A stretch of 22,455 nucleotides of DNA from a virus, in IMG/VR virus record IMGVR_UViG_3300035698_000961, positions 1 to 22,455 of that record. One strand, written 5' to 3'. Shown in pieces: positions 6,034 to 19,894 of the stretch (within the stretch, counting starts at the first letter, position 1; each line of letters opens with the position of its first letter). The notes under the pieces were generated by a model. That model did not search any database. It had not been told where the DNA came from and saw only the letters and a program-made list of their open reading frames with translations. The position numbers were made by a program, and so were the translations under genes.

Positions 6034-6426
6034 ATGAAGAGAAAGAAGAAAAAGAAGCCCAGCATTAAGAATGTTGATGTTTCTAAACCCATACTAGAGG
6101 TTTTAGGAACTGAAGATGACCCATGTTTTGGACACCATCTGGTAACGGACAAGGAATGTAAGAAGTGTGGAGACTCCGAACTCTGTGCAATCATCACTGC
6201 CCAAAAACTGAGAGTAGAGAGAGCTAAGCTAAGTAAGACCTCCACCTTTAGAGATGTAGAGGATGAGGATTTAATGGCTAAGAGAGATAATAAGATAAGG
6301 AAAACCATTAAGACCTTATTAAAAATGGAAAAGAACGATAGTACCATTGCTAAGAAACTCAAGAACCGGTACAACTTATCAACAGCAGAGTCTAATAAAT
6401 ACATCAAAGCATGTCGCAAGAAATAG
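6034..6426 (+). CDS. Small basic Cys-rich (putative zinc-binding) protein
   Basis: This 130-residue protein begins with a run of Lys/Arg (KRKKKKK). It then has a compact Cys/His cluster at ~31-52: 'DPCFGHH', then 'ECKKCGDSELCAI'. Four Cys plus two His could bind one zinc ion. The C-terminal half is helical and basic, with 'DSTIAKKLKNRYNLSTAES' resembling a short helix-turn-helix. A nucleic-acid-binding role is likely, but the specific function is unknown. It follows a promoter-like motif, so it is probably first in its transcript, and it overlaps the next gene by 16 nt. Confidence 0.8.
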   Translation: MKRKKKKKPSIKNVDVSKPILEVLGTEDDPCFGHHLVTDKECKKCGDSELCAIITAQKLRVERAKLSKTSTFRDVEDEDLMAKRDNKIRKTIKTLLKMEKNDSTIAKKLKNRYNLSTAESNKYIKACRKK

Positions 6427-7241
6427 AAGGTAGTATATTTGATGGACAGCTCCTAGAAAGGATGTTCGATAAACAAGAGGCTTATATGCTTAAGCTGTTT
6501 GAGAGAGAGGGTATGACTGAATGGCCACTTCTATTAAACATTAAACATAACCAGAAACTTATTAACTATACAGTTGATAGGGGTATCACTGAGTTATCGG
6601 AAGCATTTGAGGTTTCCCAAGCTTTAGCAATGGCCGCTGATAAGAACCAATTAGATGACCACCCTATTGATGAGATGGTAAAAGATTTCAACCTAGAGAT
6701 GGCTGACATCTTACACTTCTTTATCGAAACCTTTGTGTTTGTTGGTATTACTCCTCACGATATGGATAAATACTACCGAGAGCTTTTATCAGAGCAGGGT
6801 TTAAATGATACTTATTATTTCAAGGGTAATACCCTTAAAACAATCTTAGCATTTGCAAGACACCAGAACATCTTTGAGGGGTACTATAAAAATGATATGA
6901 TTAATGTCAACATTATGCCCCAAATTGATGAGCAAGACCCTCTAACCGATAGTCTATATATTGCAGGTAGGAAGGCATCAATGCGGAGGTTAATTGACCA
7001 ATCTTCTGAGCTATGGATGGTAACTCATTCATTTAAGATAGCCACAAACCTATTGAAGATGAAGCCACATAGAGTTTCAGGCCCTGAAACAGACTACTCA
7101 GTATTCTATGATAAGATTATGGGAGCCTGGGTAAGGTTATTCAAATACTTTGATATGGTGGGTGCAACAGAGTACAGTTTATACGAAAATTATATAACCA
7201 AAAATGAAGAGAACATTAAGCGGCTCAAGAATGAATACTGA
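6411..7241 (+). CDS. dUTPase-like all-alpha NTP pyrophosphatase
   Basis: This 276-residue, mostly helical protein fits the dimeric dUTPase / MazG-type all-alpha superfamily. That group uses an ExxE...ExxD metal site to hydrolyse dUTP (and often dCTP) to the monophosphate. The first pair is E61-L-S-E64 and the second E96-M-A-D99 in 'NLEMADILHFFIE'. The C-terminus 'YITKNEENIKRLKNEY' matches the family's 'Y..KN..N..R...GY' type ending, with Glu before the final Tyr where Gly is usual. It would supply dUMP (or dCMP) to the two thymidylate-synthase-like enzymes encoded next, and would keep uracil out of phage DNA. It overlaps the next gene by 11 nt. Confidence 0.68.
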   Translation: MSQEIEGSIFDGQLLERMFDKQEAYMLKLFEREGMTEWPLLLNIKHNQKLINYTVDRGITELSEAFEVSQALAMAADKNQLDDHPIDEMVKDFNLEMADILHFFIETFVFVGITPHDMDKYYRELLSEQGLNDTYYFKGNTLKTILAFARHQNIFEGYYKNDMINVNIMPQIDEQDPLTDSLYIAGRKASMRRLIDQSSELWMVTHSFKIATNLLKMKPHRVSGPETDYSVFYDKIMGAWVRLFKYFDMVGATEYSLYENYITKNEENIKRLKNEY

Positions 7242-8124
7242 AACCAACGAAGCTTGGTACCCAAACCTTGTTGAGGCATGGAAGGGTATCAATGAGTATT
7301 TGTTGACACAGGAACACGAGATTATAGATAAGGGCTGGGGTCAGTATGGACCGCAGATGACTACCTATAACAACCATATTTTTATTGAAAGCCTAGACTT
7401 CGACCCCGAGTTTGACTTCGGAAAGATACTGGGCTACTCGGATAAGAAATGGTCAGGACTAGTTAACAACTACGTAGACTTCGATTACCTTGACATGATT
7501 AAAAACGAAATCCAGTCAAGGATATTGAAGAAAGCAAAGAGCTATAATTACTCATACCACTTTGTGAATGTGCATGGTAGTGGAAAGGACTGCTTAATCT
7601 CACTCACCTTTACCAAAAGGATATATGACACCATACCAACGGTTGTATTCCATGTAAGGACTTCGGAGGTTACAAAGAGACTACCCTTTGACTTCCTATT
7701 AGCGAAAAGGATATGCCAGTACATATATGGAGAGGATGCAGAACTACATCTTGAATTTATTGCCCCTTCCTATTATATAACTTCCGAGAGCATCTTAATG
7801 TATGACAATGTTAAGAAGCTAAAAAGGCTATTAAGAAAGGTTAAAAAGAAAATGGGTTCACTGGGTAAATTCCAACAGAGAGTTATCATGGTCTACGATA
7901 AATTCATGACTACCCCATTGGAGCAGATAACTTTCAAGGTTAATCAGAGGTCAGCTGCCCAAATCCAAAGGGATGAGAATGGAGAGCCAATGTCAGGAGT
8001 TAAGTCAATGAAAGCAAAGGAGCTATGGCTTACTGATATTAAGATTGATTACCCTGGTGATTGCGTTACACCGAAAGCAAGATTTATGTACAGAAAAGAA
8101 CTAAGACAGGCTGGGAAACTATGA
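7231..8124 (+). CDS. Divergent thymidylate-synthase-superfamily protein (first of a tandem pair)
   Basis: This 297-residue protein lines up with the core of thymidylate synthase/dCMP hydroxymethylase. A Cys (C121 in 'GKDCLISLTF') lies 22 residues before R143 in 'RTSEVTKRLPFDF', matching Cys146 and Arg166...Pro-Phe-Asn of E. coli ThyA (spacing 20). D154 falls exactly on the position (R+11) that is Asn177 in dUMP-specific ThyA and Asp179 in T4 dCMP hydroxymethylase. The Arg pair expected before the Cys is not visible (Lys-rich 'KKAKSYNYS' instead). The usual His near the end reads 'SYYIT'. Activity is therefore uncertain; it may be a partner subunit of the next gene product, with which it shares an ATGA overlap. 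Start 7231 was preferred to the ATG at 7204 because it limits overlap to 11 nt. Confidence 0.6.
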   Translation: MNTETNEAWYPNLVEAWKGINEYLLTQEHEIIDKGWGQYGPQMTTYNNHIFIESLDFDPEFDFGKILGYSDKKWSGLVNNYVDFDYLDMIKNEIQSRILKKAKSYNYSYHFVNVHGSGKDCLISLTFTKRIYDTIPTVVFHVRTSEVTKRLPFDFLLAKRICQYIYGEDAELHLEFIAPSYYITSESILMYDNVKKLKRLLRKVKKKMGSLGKFQQRVIMVYDKFMTTPLEQITFKVNQRSAAQIQRDENGEPMSGVKSMKAKELWLTDIKIDYPGDCVTPKARFMYRKELRQAGKL

Positions 8125-8951
8125 TTGTAAAAAGGTACAACAGTTTAGAGTCAGCTATATGGGCTGCAGCTCAACACCTATTCCAAGAAGGGATAGAATA
8201 CCGCTCCGACAAATGGCAGGGCAAGGAGACAGAGCAGATGCACACTATGCTATCTGTAGCCCACCTTTCATTTAGAGCACCCATTCCTAACTCTACTGCC
8301 ATGCTTCTAAGGAAATCAGGAGCCCAAGAACCATGGGCTGAGGACCATTTCCAAGAGAGGGTGGGGGGTTTACCATTGAACCCAGGCAATGAGTATAAGA
8401 ATTGGAAGTTCTATAAGCACAACCCCGAAAACGATAAATTCCGAACAGAGGGAGAGAAATTTACCCACTCCTACATGGAGAGGGTTTGGCCTAAGTATGC
8501 GGGTGATGCTGAGATTGAACACACCGTTAATACACCCGCCAACCGAGGTATTCGTTATGAATATGGAGACCTGAAAGATGTAGTAGAGCTTATAAGGAAT
8601 GAACCCCTAACCCGTCAAGCCTTCCTTCCAATATGGTTTCCCGAAGATACTGGGGTACTTCATGGAGGCAGAGTTCCATGCACGATAGGCTACCACTTCC
8701 AAGTTAGGAACGCTGGGTTAAATGTCACCTACTATATTAGAGCCTGCGACTTCTTTAGACACTTCCAAGATGATGTATACCTTGCGGGTAGATTAGGACA
8801 ATGGCTCCTCTCACAATTAAAGGACCACGGTGCTAATCAAACCTATTGGAAGAACATCGTAATGGGCGACCTTACTATGCATATTGCAGACTTTCATTGC
8901 TTTGCTCACGAAAAAAGAATGTTATTAAAACACATGAAAGATGAGGCTTGA
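8121..8951 (+). CDS. Thymidylate synthase / dCMP hydroxymethylase family enzyme
   Basis: This 276-residue protein carries most of the thymidylate-synthase catalytic signature. R165-Q-A is in the partner-phosphate Arg region and V-P-C187 carries the nucleophile, followed by 'YHFQVRN'. R207-A-C-D210 lies 20 residues after the Cys, as in E. coli ThyA, and H259-C-F261 matches the 'DaHiY' motif. D218, 11 residues after R207, occupies the base-selecting position (Asn in ThyA, Asp in T4 dCMP hydroxymethylase), and the local 'FQDD' resembles 'FRND' of T4 gp42. The reaction is probably transfer of a one-carbon unit from methylene-tetrahydrofolate to C5 of dCMP or dUMP. The N-terminal half has no clear TS likeness. 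The ATG at 8121 sits in an ATGA overlap with the previous stop, so I prefer it to the in-frame ATG at 8061. Confidence 0.75.
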   Translation: MIVKRYNSLESAIWAAAQHLFQEGIEYRSDKWQGKETEQMHTMLSVAHLSFRAPIPNSTAMLLRKSGAQEPWAEDHFQERVGGLPLNPGNEYKNWKFYKHNPENDKFRTEGEKFTHSYMERVWPKYAGDAEIEHTVNTPANRGIRYEYGDLKDVVELIRNEPLTRQAFLPIWFPEDTGVLHGGRVPCTIGYHFQVRNAGLNVTYYIRACDFFRHFQDDVYLAGRLGQWLLSQLKDHGANQTYWKNIVMGDLTMHIADFHCFAHEKRMLLKHMKDEA

Positions 8952-9414
8952 AAGAGATGAACTTTATATGGGTGTAGCCCAGTTGATGTCCCTACGAAGC
9001 ACCTGTAAAAGGATGGCAGTAGGGGCAGTATTAATCATGGATGGTAGAATTATATCCTGCGGTTATAATGGAGCCCCATCTAAATTACCCCACTGCTTAG
9101 AGAACGGTTGCGATATTAACTCAGCCTGTAATCACTCATACCATGCCGAGGCAAATGCTATCATGTGGGCATTGAATAAGCAGATACCCATAGACGGTGC
9201 AACATTATACTGTACACATAGCCCATGTATGGGTTGTGCAGAGTTATTAGTCCAATGCATGAGAGCAGGGCAACACATCAAAAGAGTAGTATATTTTGAT
9301 GAATACCGAGATAAAGAGGGTTTACTATTCTTAGAAAGAAATCAGATTAAAACAGAGCATTACCAAGATGGGCGGAATTTCCAAACACAGCTTCGAGATT
9401 GTAAACTCAGTTAA
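8941..9414 (+). CDS. Deoxycytidylate (dCMP) deaminase
   Basis: This 157-residue zinc enzyme converts dCMP to dUMP. The catalytic zinc site is complete: H68-A-E70 and P95-C96-M-G-C99. The substrate-side 'GYNGAP' (N43) typical of dCMP deaminases, as opposed to cytidine deaminases, is present. Extra residues C22, H51, C57, C63 and H65 could form the second, structural zinc site known from some phage enzymes. Length matches the family. It overlaps the TS-like gene by 11 nt and the polymerase gene by 47 nt. In T4 a dCMP deaminase coexists with a dCMP hydroxymethylase, so its presence does not rule out modified-cytosine synthesis. Confidence 0.93.
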   Translation: MRLERDELYMGVAQLMSLRSTCKRMAVGAVLIMDGRIISCGYNGAPSKLPHCLENGCDINSACNHSYHAEANAIMWALNKQIPIDGATLYCTHSPCMGCAELLVQCMRAGQHIKRVVYFDEYRDKEGLLFLERNQIKTEHYQDGRNFQTQLRDCKLS

Positions 9415-15086: not shown

Positions 15087-15719
15087 ATGAGAGTAGGAAT
15101 ATGTGGCCCGTCAGGGACAGGAAAGACCACCCTTGCGAAGAGGTTGGCAATGGAGTATGAATTGACCTACAAACCCTTATCTGCCAATACGGTACTGACA
15201 GAAATGGGTTATGATTTTGGGGCAAAGGAGATGGGACACCGTTGGATAATTAATAACTCTTCCGAGAAGATTGACTGGGGTATTGAGTTCCAAGAGCAAT
15301 TACTAAAGAGCCGCATTAATGCTTTGAAGGGGTTAGATAATGTTATTATTGACCGAACCCCCATTGATAACTTAGTCTACTCTATGTATGAGTGCCTTCA
15401 TAATGTAGATGAGAAATGGGTGGAAGCATTAAGAAAAAAGGCATTTGAATTTTACCTGACCTTTGACTTAATCATCTTTATACCTTACTCAAAGGAGCAG
15501 GGTAAAATTGAAGATAATGGTTCAAGAATACCAAACATATATTTCCAAGAACTAATCTCTACAATATTCGAGAGCCAGGTTAGGATTATTCATGACATGC
15601 TTTTTGATGAGGTAATGGAGAGTACACACAATGTACCGGCTCCAAAATTCATTAAGATTACTCAGTGGGATTTTGAGCAGAGACTTCGCTCTTGCAAAAC
15701 AGCTATAGATAAACTGTAA
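15087..15719 (+). CDS. P-loop nucleoside/nucleotide kinase-like ATPase
   Basis: This 210-residue protein begins directly with a P-loop, G7-P-S-G-T-G-K13-T-T, followed by 'LAKRLAMEY' as in the AAA_28/NadR-like kinase group. 'NVIIDRTPIDNLVYSMY' after ~90 residues looks like a Walker B/DRTP substrate motif seen in deoxynucleoside and nucleotide kinases. 'DLIIFIPYSKE' looks like the later core strand. A role in phosphorylating phage nucleotides (for instance a modified dNMP) is plausible given the TS-like pair, but kinases acting on modified bases in DNA or on unrelated substrates share this fold. The substrate cannot be read from the sequence. Its stop overlaps the next start in a TAATG. Confidence 0.7.
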   Translation: MRVGICGPSGTGKTTLAKRLAMEYELTYKPLSANTVLTEMGYDFGAKEMGHRWIINNSSEKIDWGIEFQEQLLKSRINALKGLDNVIIDRTPIDNLVYSMYECLHNVDEKWVEALRKKAFEFYLTFDLIIFIPYSKEQGKIEDNGSRIPNIYFQELISTIFESQVRIIHDMLFDEVMESTHNVPAPKFIKITQWDFEQRLRSCKTAIDKL

Positions 15720-18596: not shown

Positions 18597-19148
18597 ATGG
18601 CTATAAACAGTAGAAACAAAGGAAACAAAGCGGAACGAGTAGTTGCTAAACTGCTTCAAGAGTGGTCTGGCAAAGAGTTTGCACGAACACCCTCATCAGG
18701 TGGCCTCCAATGGTCAGCTACCAATGCAAAGGGGGATATAGTATGTACCACAGAGGGCCATCTATTCCCTTTATGCGTGGAAGTTAAACACCATGAGAAA
18801 GTAGATTTCAATGAGCTTTTAACGGGGAGTAAAAAGACACCCAAGATTATCCTATTTTGGGAGCAGTGCTTGAGAGATGCCCTACTTGCTAAAAAAGCCC
18901 CCATACTAATATTCCGATATAACAACTTACCCAAAGACTTCTTTTTTGTAGCCTTGGAAACATCTATATACCAGAGGATTAGGAAAGACCAGATGATGTC
19001 AGGGTATGGGCATGAGCTATTCCATATACGAACTGCTCAATATAACTTAACCATTATATCCACAAATACCCTGTTCAAATTCGATTACAAAGAACTTAAA
19101 AAAACACTAAAACCTCTATTGAAAAAATGGCGAAAAGGAAAGGCATAA
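18597..19148 (+). CDS. PD-(D/E)XK nuclease, Holliday-junction-resolvase-like
   Basis: This 183-residue protein has the compact PD-(D/E)XK core. 'NKGNKAERVVAKLL' carries the helix-1 Glu (E13), D47 is in 'AKGDIVC', and E62-V-K64 is in 'CVEVKHHE'. The 'GN.aEr...' start resembles archaeal Hjc-type resolvases and phage relatives. It would cut branched recombination intermediates or act as a structure-specific nuclease. The C-terminal half (LILFWEQCLRDALLAKKA-type helices, then a basic tail) is less typical. It overlaps the NusG-like gene by 22 nt. Other endonuclease roles within this fold, such as trimming concatemers, cannot be excluded. Confidence 0.72.
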   Translation: MAINSRNKGNKAERVVAKLLQEWSGKEFARTPSSGGLQWSATNAKGDIVCTTEGHLFPLCVEVKHHEKVDFNELLTGSKKTPKIILFWEQCLRDALLAKKAPILIFRYNNLPKDFFFVALETSIYQRIRKDQMMSGYGHELFHIRTAQYNLTIISTNTLFKFDYKELKKTLKPLLKKWRKGKA

Positions 19149-19894
19149 AATATAAGTGGTTTATTGCTTATATTGACGGAGAGGAACTCAGCTCATTAAA
19201 GAGGGAGTTACGGAGCTTGGATAATACTGAGCATATCAAAACCTATGTGCCTACACTTAAGGTACTTCAGAAACAGTTTAAAGGGAAAAGCCATTTTCAA
19301 AATAAACCCCTACTACTTAATTATGGGTTCTTTAAAATACCTGTATCATGGGGGTATAACCAAGAGTTTATGAGAGGGTTGCAAGATAAACTATCATGCT
19401 TAACCTCATGGTCAAAAGACCCCGCTAACTTAGTTGAAGGTGACCGAGTTAGATACCGAGCGAAGGCTGACTCAGAGGACACCATTAAGGTATCTAAAAA
19501 GAAATTCCACATGATGAAGGAGCGTAAAACCTATGCACCCATATCCGAGGCAACCGATAAAGAGATACAGAGGTTAATGGATATAGAGGCTGAGTTTAAA
19601 ATACACTCAGATAAAGACCTCACCAGATTAAAGGAAGGAGATAGCATAACCTTAAAAGGTAAACCCTTCGACAACTTAGAGGCAGTGATACTTGAGATTG
19701 ACCACCACCGTAGAAAAGTAAAGGTTAAGATTGGGGATGGTAATTTATTTTCAGAAGTGGAGGTTGAGTTTGAGAATGTATTTTACTCGATATATACCGA
19801 TGACATGGATGAGAGAGTAGGTAGGCATTTAAACATAGATGACTTCTACGGAGCAGGTAAATCAGATAACACAGAAATACACTTCGATGACTAA
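19127..19894 (+). CDS. NusG/Spt5-like transcription elongation factor
   Basis: This 255-residue protein begins with an NGN-like domain (~9-95): 'KWFIAYIDGEE', 'HIKTYVPTLKVLQKQFKG' and 'PLLLNYGFFKIP', matching NusG's aromatic beta-strand and 'lfpGYvfv' region. A first KOW-like strand 'VEGDRVRYRAK' (~105-115) is followed by a ~50-residue helical insert. A second, better KOW, 'LKEGDSITLKGKPFDN' to 'VKVKIGD', lies at ~167-200. The tail is acidic. It would bind elongating RNA polymerase and probably promote antitermination through the long phage operons. It is longer than bacterial NusG (about 180) because of the extra domain and insert. It overlaps the next gene by 8 nt. Confidence 0.68.
   Translation: MAKRKGIKYKWFIAYIDGEELSSLKRELRSLDNTEHIKTYVPTLKVLQKQFKGKSHFQNKPLLLNYGFFKIPVSWGYNQEFMRGLQDKLSCLTSWSKDPANLVEGDRVRYRAKADSEDTIKVSKKKFHMMKERKTYAPISEATDKEIQRLMDIEAEFKIHSDKDLTRLKEGDSITLKGKPFDNLEAVILEIDHHRRKVKVKIGDGNLFSEVEVEFENVFYSIYTDDMDERVGRHLNIDDFYGAGKSDNTEIHFDD

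Follow-up and report, generated by a model that had tools for sequence, protein, structure and literature searches.

Within the thymidylate synthase (TS) superfamily one residue steers the choice between dUMP and dCMP, Asn selecting the former and Asp the latter (Hardy and Nalivaika 1992 and Liu and Santi 1992, as cited in PMC8670742), and TS methylates dCMP once this Asn is changed to Asp (Liu and Santi 1992, as cited in PMC8670742). The dCMP hydroxymethylase gp42 of phage T4 uses Asp179 to recognise cytosine and to protonate N3. Its Asp171 takes part in the pterin water network and the contact to tetrahydrofolate, Asp145 matters for hydroxymethylation, and the C-terminal tail of TS is missing (PMC6400193).

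Two further enzymes bring the TS fold to cytidylates. MilA (PDB 5jnh, 5b6d) is a CMP 5-hydroxymethylase of an antibiotic pathway with ribonucleotide substrates; it has Asp at position 177, Lys in place of Arg126 and a helical C-terminal extension. AfhB of HY126 (PDB 9iqu, 9iqc), a recent deposit, is a flavin-dependent dCMP 5-hydroxylase to which ORF048c of RB69 is near-identical.

The MetaGPA study selected metagenomic DNA in which every cytosine was modified. According to its passages on TS (PMC8670742), TS was the top domain, and its residue 177 was mostly Asp on modified contigs and mostly Asn on unmodified ones. The domain co-occurred with pyrophosphohydrolases and dCMP/MafB19-like deaminases, and it was paired with a carbamoyltransferase that was shown to act on 5hmC.

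The locus and its neighbours

The window, i.e. the whole stretch of 22,455 bases that was analysed, is a fragment of a tailed-phage genome from a virus record. It encodes a replication set of DnaB-like helicase, primase, helicase, DNA polymerase I (PolA), SSB, RecA/UvsX-like recombinase, exonuclease, SbcCD and RusA-like resolvase. Between the helicase and PolA, overlapping genes follow one another, which encode a pyrophosphohydrolase, two proteins termed P1 and P2, a dCMP deaminase and PolA. The genes of P1 and P2 overlap by 4 bp (ATGA). The relevant features are:

6034..6426, + strand: putative 130-aa protein with a CxxCGDSELC motif; closer relatives of the window and gut phages also have it upstream of the pair
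6411..7241, + strand: MazG/dUTPase_2-like nucleotide pyrophosphohydrolase, 11-bp overlap with P1
ATG 7231 to stop 8124, + strand: P1, divergent TS-superfamily protein of an unannotated family, 297 aa
7471-7473, 7591-7593, 7657-7659 and 7690-7692, + strand: codons of Y81, C121, R143 and D154 of P1
ATG 8121 to stop 8951, + strand: P2, 276-aa TS-family protein of the Asp177 type, probably a dCMP hydroxymethylase
8679-8681, 8739-8741 and 8772-8774, + strand: codons of C187, R207 and D218 of P2, numbered from ATG 8121
8941..9414, + strand: dCMP deaminase (phrog_174, E 1.5e-49), 11-bp overlap with P2
9368..11512, + strand: DNA polymerase I family replicase, just downstream of P1/P2 in the module (phrog_17, E 2.4e-115)
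15087..15719, + strand: P-loop kinase, thymidylate-kinase-like (phrog_2107, E 9.6e-17)

The first-pass annotation had described the two middle ORFs as tandem TS-superfamily genes, both with Asp at the base-selecting position. Both ORFs are present, and the residues it had picked (C121, R143 and D154 of P1; C187, R207 and D218 of P2) proved to be the right ones. Its use of the Asn/Asp rule agrees with the published work, including Asp177 as the mark of TS on cytosine-modified contigs in the TS passages of PMC8670742. It had also regarded the neighbours as fitting a modified-base pathway, which was supported. The order pyrophosphatase-P1-P2-dCMP deaminase-PolA was conserved in the named phages examined, and an Asp177-type TS near a pyrophosphohydrolase and a dCMP/MafB19-like deaminase is the arrangement given for MetaGPA contigs in those passages; in a Pfam search the deaminase of the window matched both dCMP and MafB19-like deaminase models. 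Pyrophosphatase, dCMP deaminase and kinase are partners of T4 gp42, too. The pyrophosphohydrolase is a probable dCTP/dUTP pyrophosphatase that would feed dCMP and dUMP, the kinase is a candidate for phosphorylation of a modified dNMP, and PolA would have to accept the modified dCTP.

The TS-family protein P2

P2 is clearly a TS-family protein. In profile searches it matched Pfam PF00303 with an E-value of 6.9e-6, above the cut-off, and phrog_160 with 4.9e-25. Arg165, Cys187, Arg207, Asp210, Asp218 and His259 were all but invariant among 95 distinct relatives (C187 94/95, R207 95/95, D210 94/95 and D218 92/95), and Y118, which like Asp210 corresponds to a pterin-side residue of gp42 (Tyr96), was kept in 93/95. 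Arg207 follows the catalytic Cys by 20 residues and Asp218 follows the Arg by 11. The alignment with T4 gp42 showed that Tyr96, Cys148, Arg168, Asp171 and Asp179 of the T4 enzyme are all kept in P2, Arg207, Asp210 and Asp218 being paired with Arg168, Asp171 and Asp179 at equal spacing. The gp42 stretch RSNDVVFGFRND lines up with the P2 consensus RSCDxxRHFRDD, in which the FRND/FRDD motifs are near-identical. By alignment and by the fixed Arg+11 spacing common with gp42, the Asp residues of both P1 and P2 would thus occupy position 177/179.

Asn replaces Asp218 in three of the 95 relatives, i.e. in the TS of phage M6, in the canonical ThyA of locus L104 and in a Cys-less TS of locus L023. Phage M6, the TS of which thus differs from P2 in this residue, is a thymidine-hypermodifying phage. 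We consider a dCMP-type specificity of P2 highly probable. The proposed dCMP preference and modified-cytosine pathway are well supported for P2, while for P1 we infer them.

Hydroxymethylation is somewhat favoured as the reaction of P2. Like gp42, P2 has no folate-closing C-terminal TS tail; in the alignment it ends shortly past the His207 region, and the ThyA of L104 extends further. E79, present in 91/95 relatives, has a helix place similar to that of T4 Glu60 (Glu58 in E. coli TS) and is a candidate counterpart by alignment and model rather than by superposition. On the other hand, identity with gp42 is only about 16% over the alignment, and the position of T4 Asp145 is Arg184 in P2. In contrast to T4, no glucosyltransferase was seen near P2.

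The same findings bear on the possibility that P2 methylates dCMP at C5, like the enzyme of phage XP12, which would leave 5-methylcytosine in the DNA. The Asn-to-Asp switch makes TS methylate dCMP (Liu and Santi 1992, as cited in PMC8670742), and Muddy, Serbin and PMBT14 have no annotated glycosyltransferase, as would be the case if the base offered no hydroxyl group for decoration. Yet the folate-covering tail of TS is missing from P2 as it is from gp42, and P2 homologues of two loci, L081 and L051, have in their vicinity a carbamoyltransferase whose Pfam families are those of the enzyme shown to act on 5hmC. This proximity supports hydroxymethylation by the P2 family indirectly, because both loci belong to a clade that lacks P1. 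We regard a methylase as unlikely.

The first-pass annotation had suggested structure prediction as a check and had offered a methyl or a hydroxymethyl product. The AlphaFold models of both proteins matched TS-superfamily folds, with AfhB on top (Z 14.2 for P1 and 19.7 for P2). The P2 model (pLDDT 86) also matched MilA with Z 19.4 and many TS chains with Z 18-19 in the comparison with PDB structures. The best PDB profile matches of P2 included the dCMP/CMP enzymes AfhB and MilA, and AfhB led these as well. Since both models thus resemble most closely, among solved structures, an enzyme that hydroxylates dCMP at C5 with flavin, the choice between two products was too narrow and 5-hydroxycytosine has to be added as a third product class.

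In this case P2 (or P1) would yield 5-hydroxy-dCMP by flavin and oxygen, with no need for folate, like ORF048c of RB69 or AfhB of HY126, and the DNA would contain 5-hydroxycytosine. A TS-superfamily 5-hodCMP synthase of RB69-type phages is described in PMC13390438, and AfhB shares the Cys, the Arg and the Asp at the base-selecting position with P1 and P2. However, the scores of P2 with AfhB, MilA and ordinary TS lie within about one Z unit, so that the fold leaves the product unsettled. Furthermore, the residue at the Asp169 position is Asn in AfhB, a family mark deduced from this one AfhB sequence, whereas P2 has Asp210, which places it with the folate enzymes. Thus we view a 5-hydroxylase as rather unlikely, and for P2 we continue to favour hydroxymethylation.

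P2 of the window carries Ala208 (8742-8744), a residue it shares with six relatives, while most of the family has Ser. Enzymes of deoxynucleotides usually have Ser here as well, which counts against the favoured reading. MilA has Ala at the corresponding Ser167 position, and the same Ser-to-Ala change accounts for its use of the ribonucleotide CMP (PMC5175136). MilA differs from P2 in its Lys for Arg126, where P2 has Arg165.

The partner protein P1

No Pfam model matched P1, and its relatives matched only two PHROGs, phrog_13667 and phrog_34294, which are entries of unknown function with no link to the TS superfamily. The 55 distinct relatives were on average about 20% identical to one another, and Y81, C121, R143 and D154 were the only invariant positions, a residue pattern that exceeds chance. 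Comparison of the P1 and P2 families with hhalign brought Cys, Arg and Asp into register with E-values of 5.8e-5 and 1.5e-4 and probabilities of 66% and 52%. The AlphaFold model of P1 (pLDDT 93) has a TS fold. Its top PDB match was AfhB with dCMP (183 residues, rmsd 3.8), followed by MilA with Z up to 12.7 and ordinary TS with about 10. The profile-profile comparison with the P2 family and the predicted model together assign P1 to the TS superfamily. The A1 and A4 profiles gave no TS match among PDB sequences, only insignificant ones to citrate synthase or ferritin; P1 is thus not tied to solved TS structures by sequence alone. Its identity with AfhB is 13%, and unlike AfhB it has a C-terminal helical extension, which it shares with MilA. 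The basic C-terminal part had raised the idea of a DNA-binding enzyme, which was rejected in view of tail net charges from -10 to +28 with a median of +2.

The two proteins had been treated alike in the first-pass annotation. This was correct with respect to Cys, Arg and Asp, but the proteins are not equivalent. From the alignment, Tyr81 of P1 is probably the counterpart of Tyr94/96. At the Asp169 position (R143+3), where P2 has Asp and AfhB Asn, the 55 P1 members have Glu (39), Tyr (13) or Asp (3), and no conserved match of Glu58 or other invariant acidic residue was found among them. Judged by its conserved positions, P1 retains the ring-activating residues and has lost the usual folate ones. 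The absence of the folate-contacting Asp169 and of a conserved Glu58 match makes a role as a second folate-dependent hydroxymethylase unlikely. P1 has neither Asp nor Asn at this position, so that it is mainly P1 that might use a flavin- or oxygen-type reaction, although we consider P1 as a flavin-type hydroxylase doubtful.

Whether P1 catalyses at all has to be weighed against a role as the partner subunit of P2, which in a heterodimer would shape or regulate the active site of P2 with no activity of its own. TS active sites take Arg126 from the other subunit. A conserved Arg126 equivalent is missing in P1, with K or R at position 103 in 33 of the 55 members and an unsure alignment in this region, and at many loci P1 and P2 are closely adjacent and coupled by ATGA. 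Yet Cys, Arg, Asp and Tyr of P1 itself are invariant, although a subunit with no catalytic role could do without them, and a whole clade has P2 without P1. A mere subunit is therefore unlikely in our view. For P1 as an active second enzyme of cytosine we see about even odds.

P1 partners are not known from T4, and the TS passages of PMC8670742 do not mention one. The kind of enzyme is already known; new here is the P1 family, which is paired with P2, widespread, unannotated and reduced in its active site.

Distribution of the pair and the proposed pathway

The P1/P2 module was found in Mycobacterium phage Muddy and in phages of Gordonia, Serratia, Yersinia, Pseudomonas and Streptomyces as well as in gut phages. 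Relatives of P1 lie beside or near P2 in Muddy, Cozz and Button (Gordonia), Opt-155 (Serratia), P744 (Yersinia), Strzyga (Brevundimonas), Shrew (Curtobacterium), PMBT14 (Pseudomonas), KimJongPhill (Streptomyces), gut phages and IMG/VR contigs. In Muddy, which grows on M. smegmatis, the homologues of P1 and P2 are gp47 and gp46. With tblastn P2 matched 74 Gordonia records, 20 Mycobacterium records including Muddy, and many others. In most cases the annotation reads thymidylate synthase for P2 and hypothetical protein for P1. When GTDB was scanned with narrow patterns from three close P1 sequences, no cellular relative was returned.

P2 without P1 occurs in a clade made up mainly of large phages. 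In the P2 tree the P1-lacking rows formed one large clade and one extra row (two changes). Few positions separate P1-bearing from P1-lacking P2, and catalytic residues are not among them. P1 was sought in 20 P1-lacking records and found in none, while it was recovered in 16/16 control records, most of which had not been part of the training alignment. GT2 genes were present in 15/20 P1-lacking records versus 3/30 P1-bearing ones. The P1-lacking records are much larger, however, and below 75 kb only 1/6 of the P1-lacking contigs had a GT2 gene. The notion that P1 replaces a sugar transferase was therefore dropped.

P2 homologues are automatically annotated as thymidylate synthase, and dTMP synthesis, too, could be served by the neighbouring dUTPase-like protein and dCMP deaminase. 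Nevertheless, it is very improbable that the Asp misleads and that P1, P2 or both make dTMP in the ordinary way. Instead of the Asn177 of ordinary ThyA, Asp is fixed in both families (55/55 for P1 and 92/95 for P2), and Asp177 is the published substrate switch (TS passages of PMC8670742). Moreover, at least ten phages with the pair encode a separate ThyA or ThyX. Among 30 records with the pair, ThyX was present in six and a canonical ThyA in one (L089). Three more loci have their own dTMP synthase, i.e. a ThyA in L104, a ThyX in L006 and a ThyX just downstream in L018. A phage with its own dTMP synthase has no need of two others, which argues against this function of the pair. The first-pass annotation had seen no second ordinary thymidylate synthase. 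This holds for the 22-kb window, where neither ThyX nor ordinary ThyA was found, but it says little, because the record is a fragment; more telling is that relatives carry the pair plus a separate ThyA or ThyX.

Our main reading, with a probability of roughly 0.6, is that both proteins are enzymes with a TS fold in a pathway that modifies cytosine, in which P2 carries out the 5-hydroxymethyl-dCMP step and P1 a second, folate-independent step at C5. The genes, the fold match, the conservation, the synteny and the presence of separate dTMP synthases beside the pair are shown, whereas we infer the substrates, cofactors, products and order of steps as follows. dCMP would be supplied by the MazG-like pyrophosphatase. 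P2 most likely acts like T4 gp42: Cys187 would attack C6 of dCMP, Asp218 would hold and protonate the cytosine ring, 5,10-methylene-tetrahydrofolate would donate the carbon, and water would complete the reaction to 5-hydroxymethyl-dCMP. The product would then be phosphorylated by the kinase and put into phage DNA by PolA. P1 keeps Tyr81, Cys121, Arg143 and Asp154 for activation of a cytosine ring while the contacts that usually bind folate are missing, so that a second reaction at C5 that does not depend on folate is most likely for it, either on dCMP or on the product of P2. This reaction may be flavin-dependent as in the dCMP 5-hydroxylases AfhB and RB69 ORF048c.

The phage thus probably alters its cytosines chemically. 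The open literature yielded neither biochemical nor mass-spectrometric results on phages carrying the pair, and the published accounts of P744, PMBT14, CUB19 and PfDIW6 contain nothing on DNA modification. A tentative extension, which we hold at less than even odds, is that P1 founds a TS-fold family that works without folate in a separate, undescribed reaction at C5 of a cytosine nucleotide, and that together with P2 it gives phages, Muddy included, a cytosine base foreign to T4-type phages.

If both proteins act on cytosine, these phages would have modified DNA, which bears on evasion of restriction and CRISPR, on sequencing and on genome engineering. The module is common, Muddy is a phage used in therapy, and several of the hosts can be cultured in ordinary laboratories. 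P1 would also show how much the TS fold can lose without giving up its action on a pyrimidine.

Some minor observations were made along the way. A 255-aa protein of the window (19127-19894) resembles by eye antitermination proteins of the NusG/RfaH type; it had no significant Pfam match. In L104 (2667-6352) four TS-superfamily genes follow each other, P1, a canonical ThyA with Asn177, a second P1 and P2, with PolA next. The slot between the two P1 copies is taken by ThyA in L104 (3668-4639) and by the non-homologous ThyX in L006 (12960-13601), both gut phages. Directly upstream of a normal P2, L023 (7803-8501) encodes a TS-like protein with Thr for the catalytic Cys and Asn at 177, possibly a dead paralogue. 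Finally, ORFs that by eye resemble HNH-type homing endonucleases are located amid the P1/P2 genes of gut phage L009 (9821-10330 and 6150-6734).
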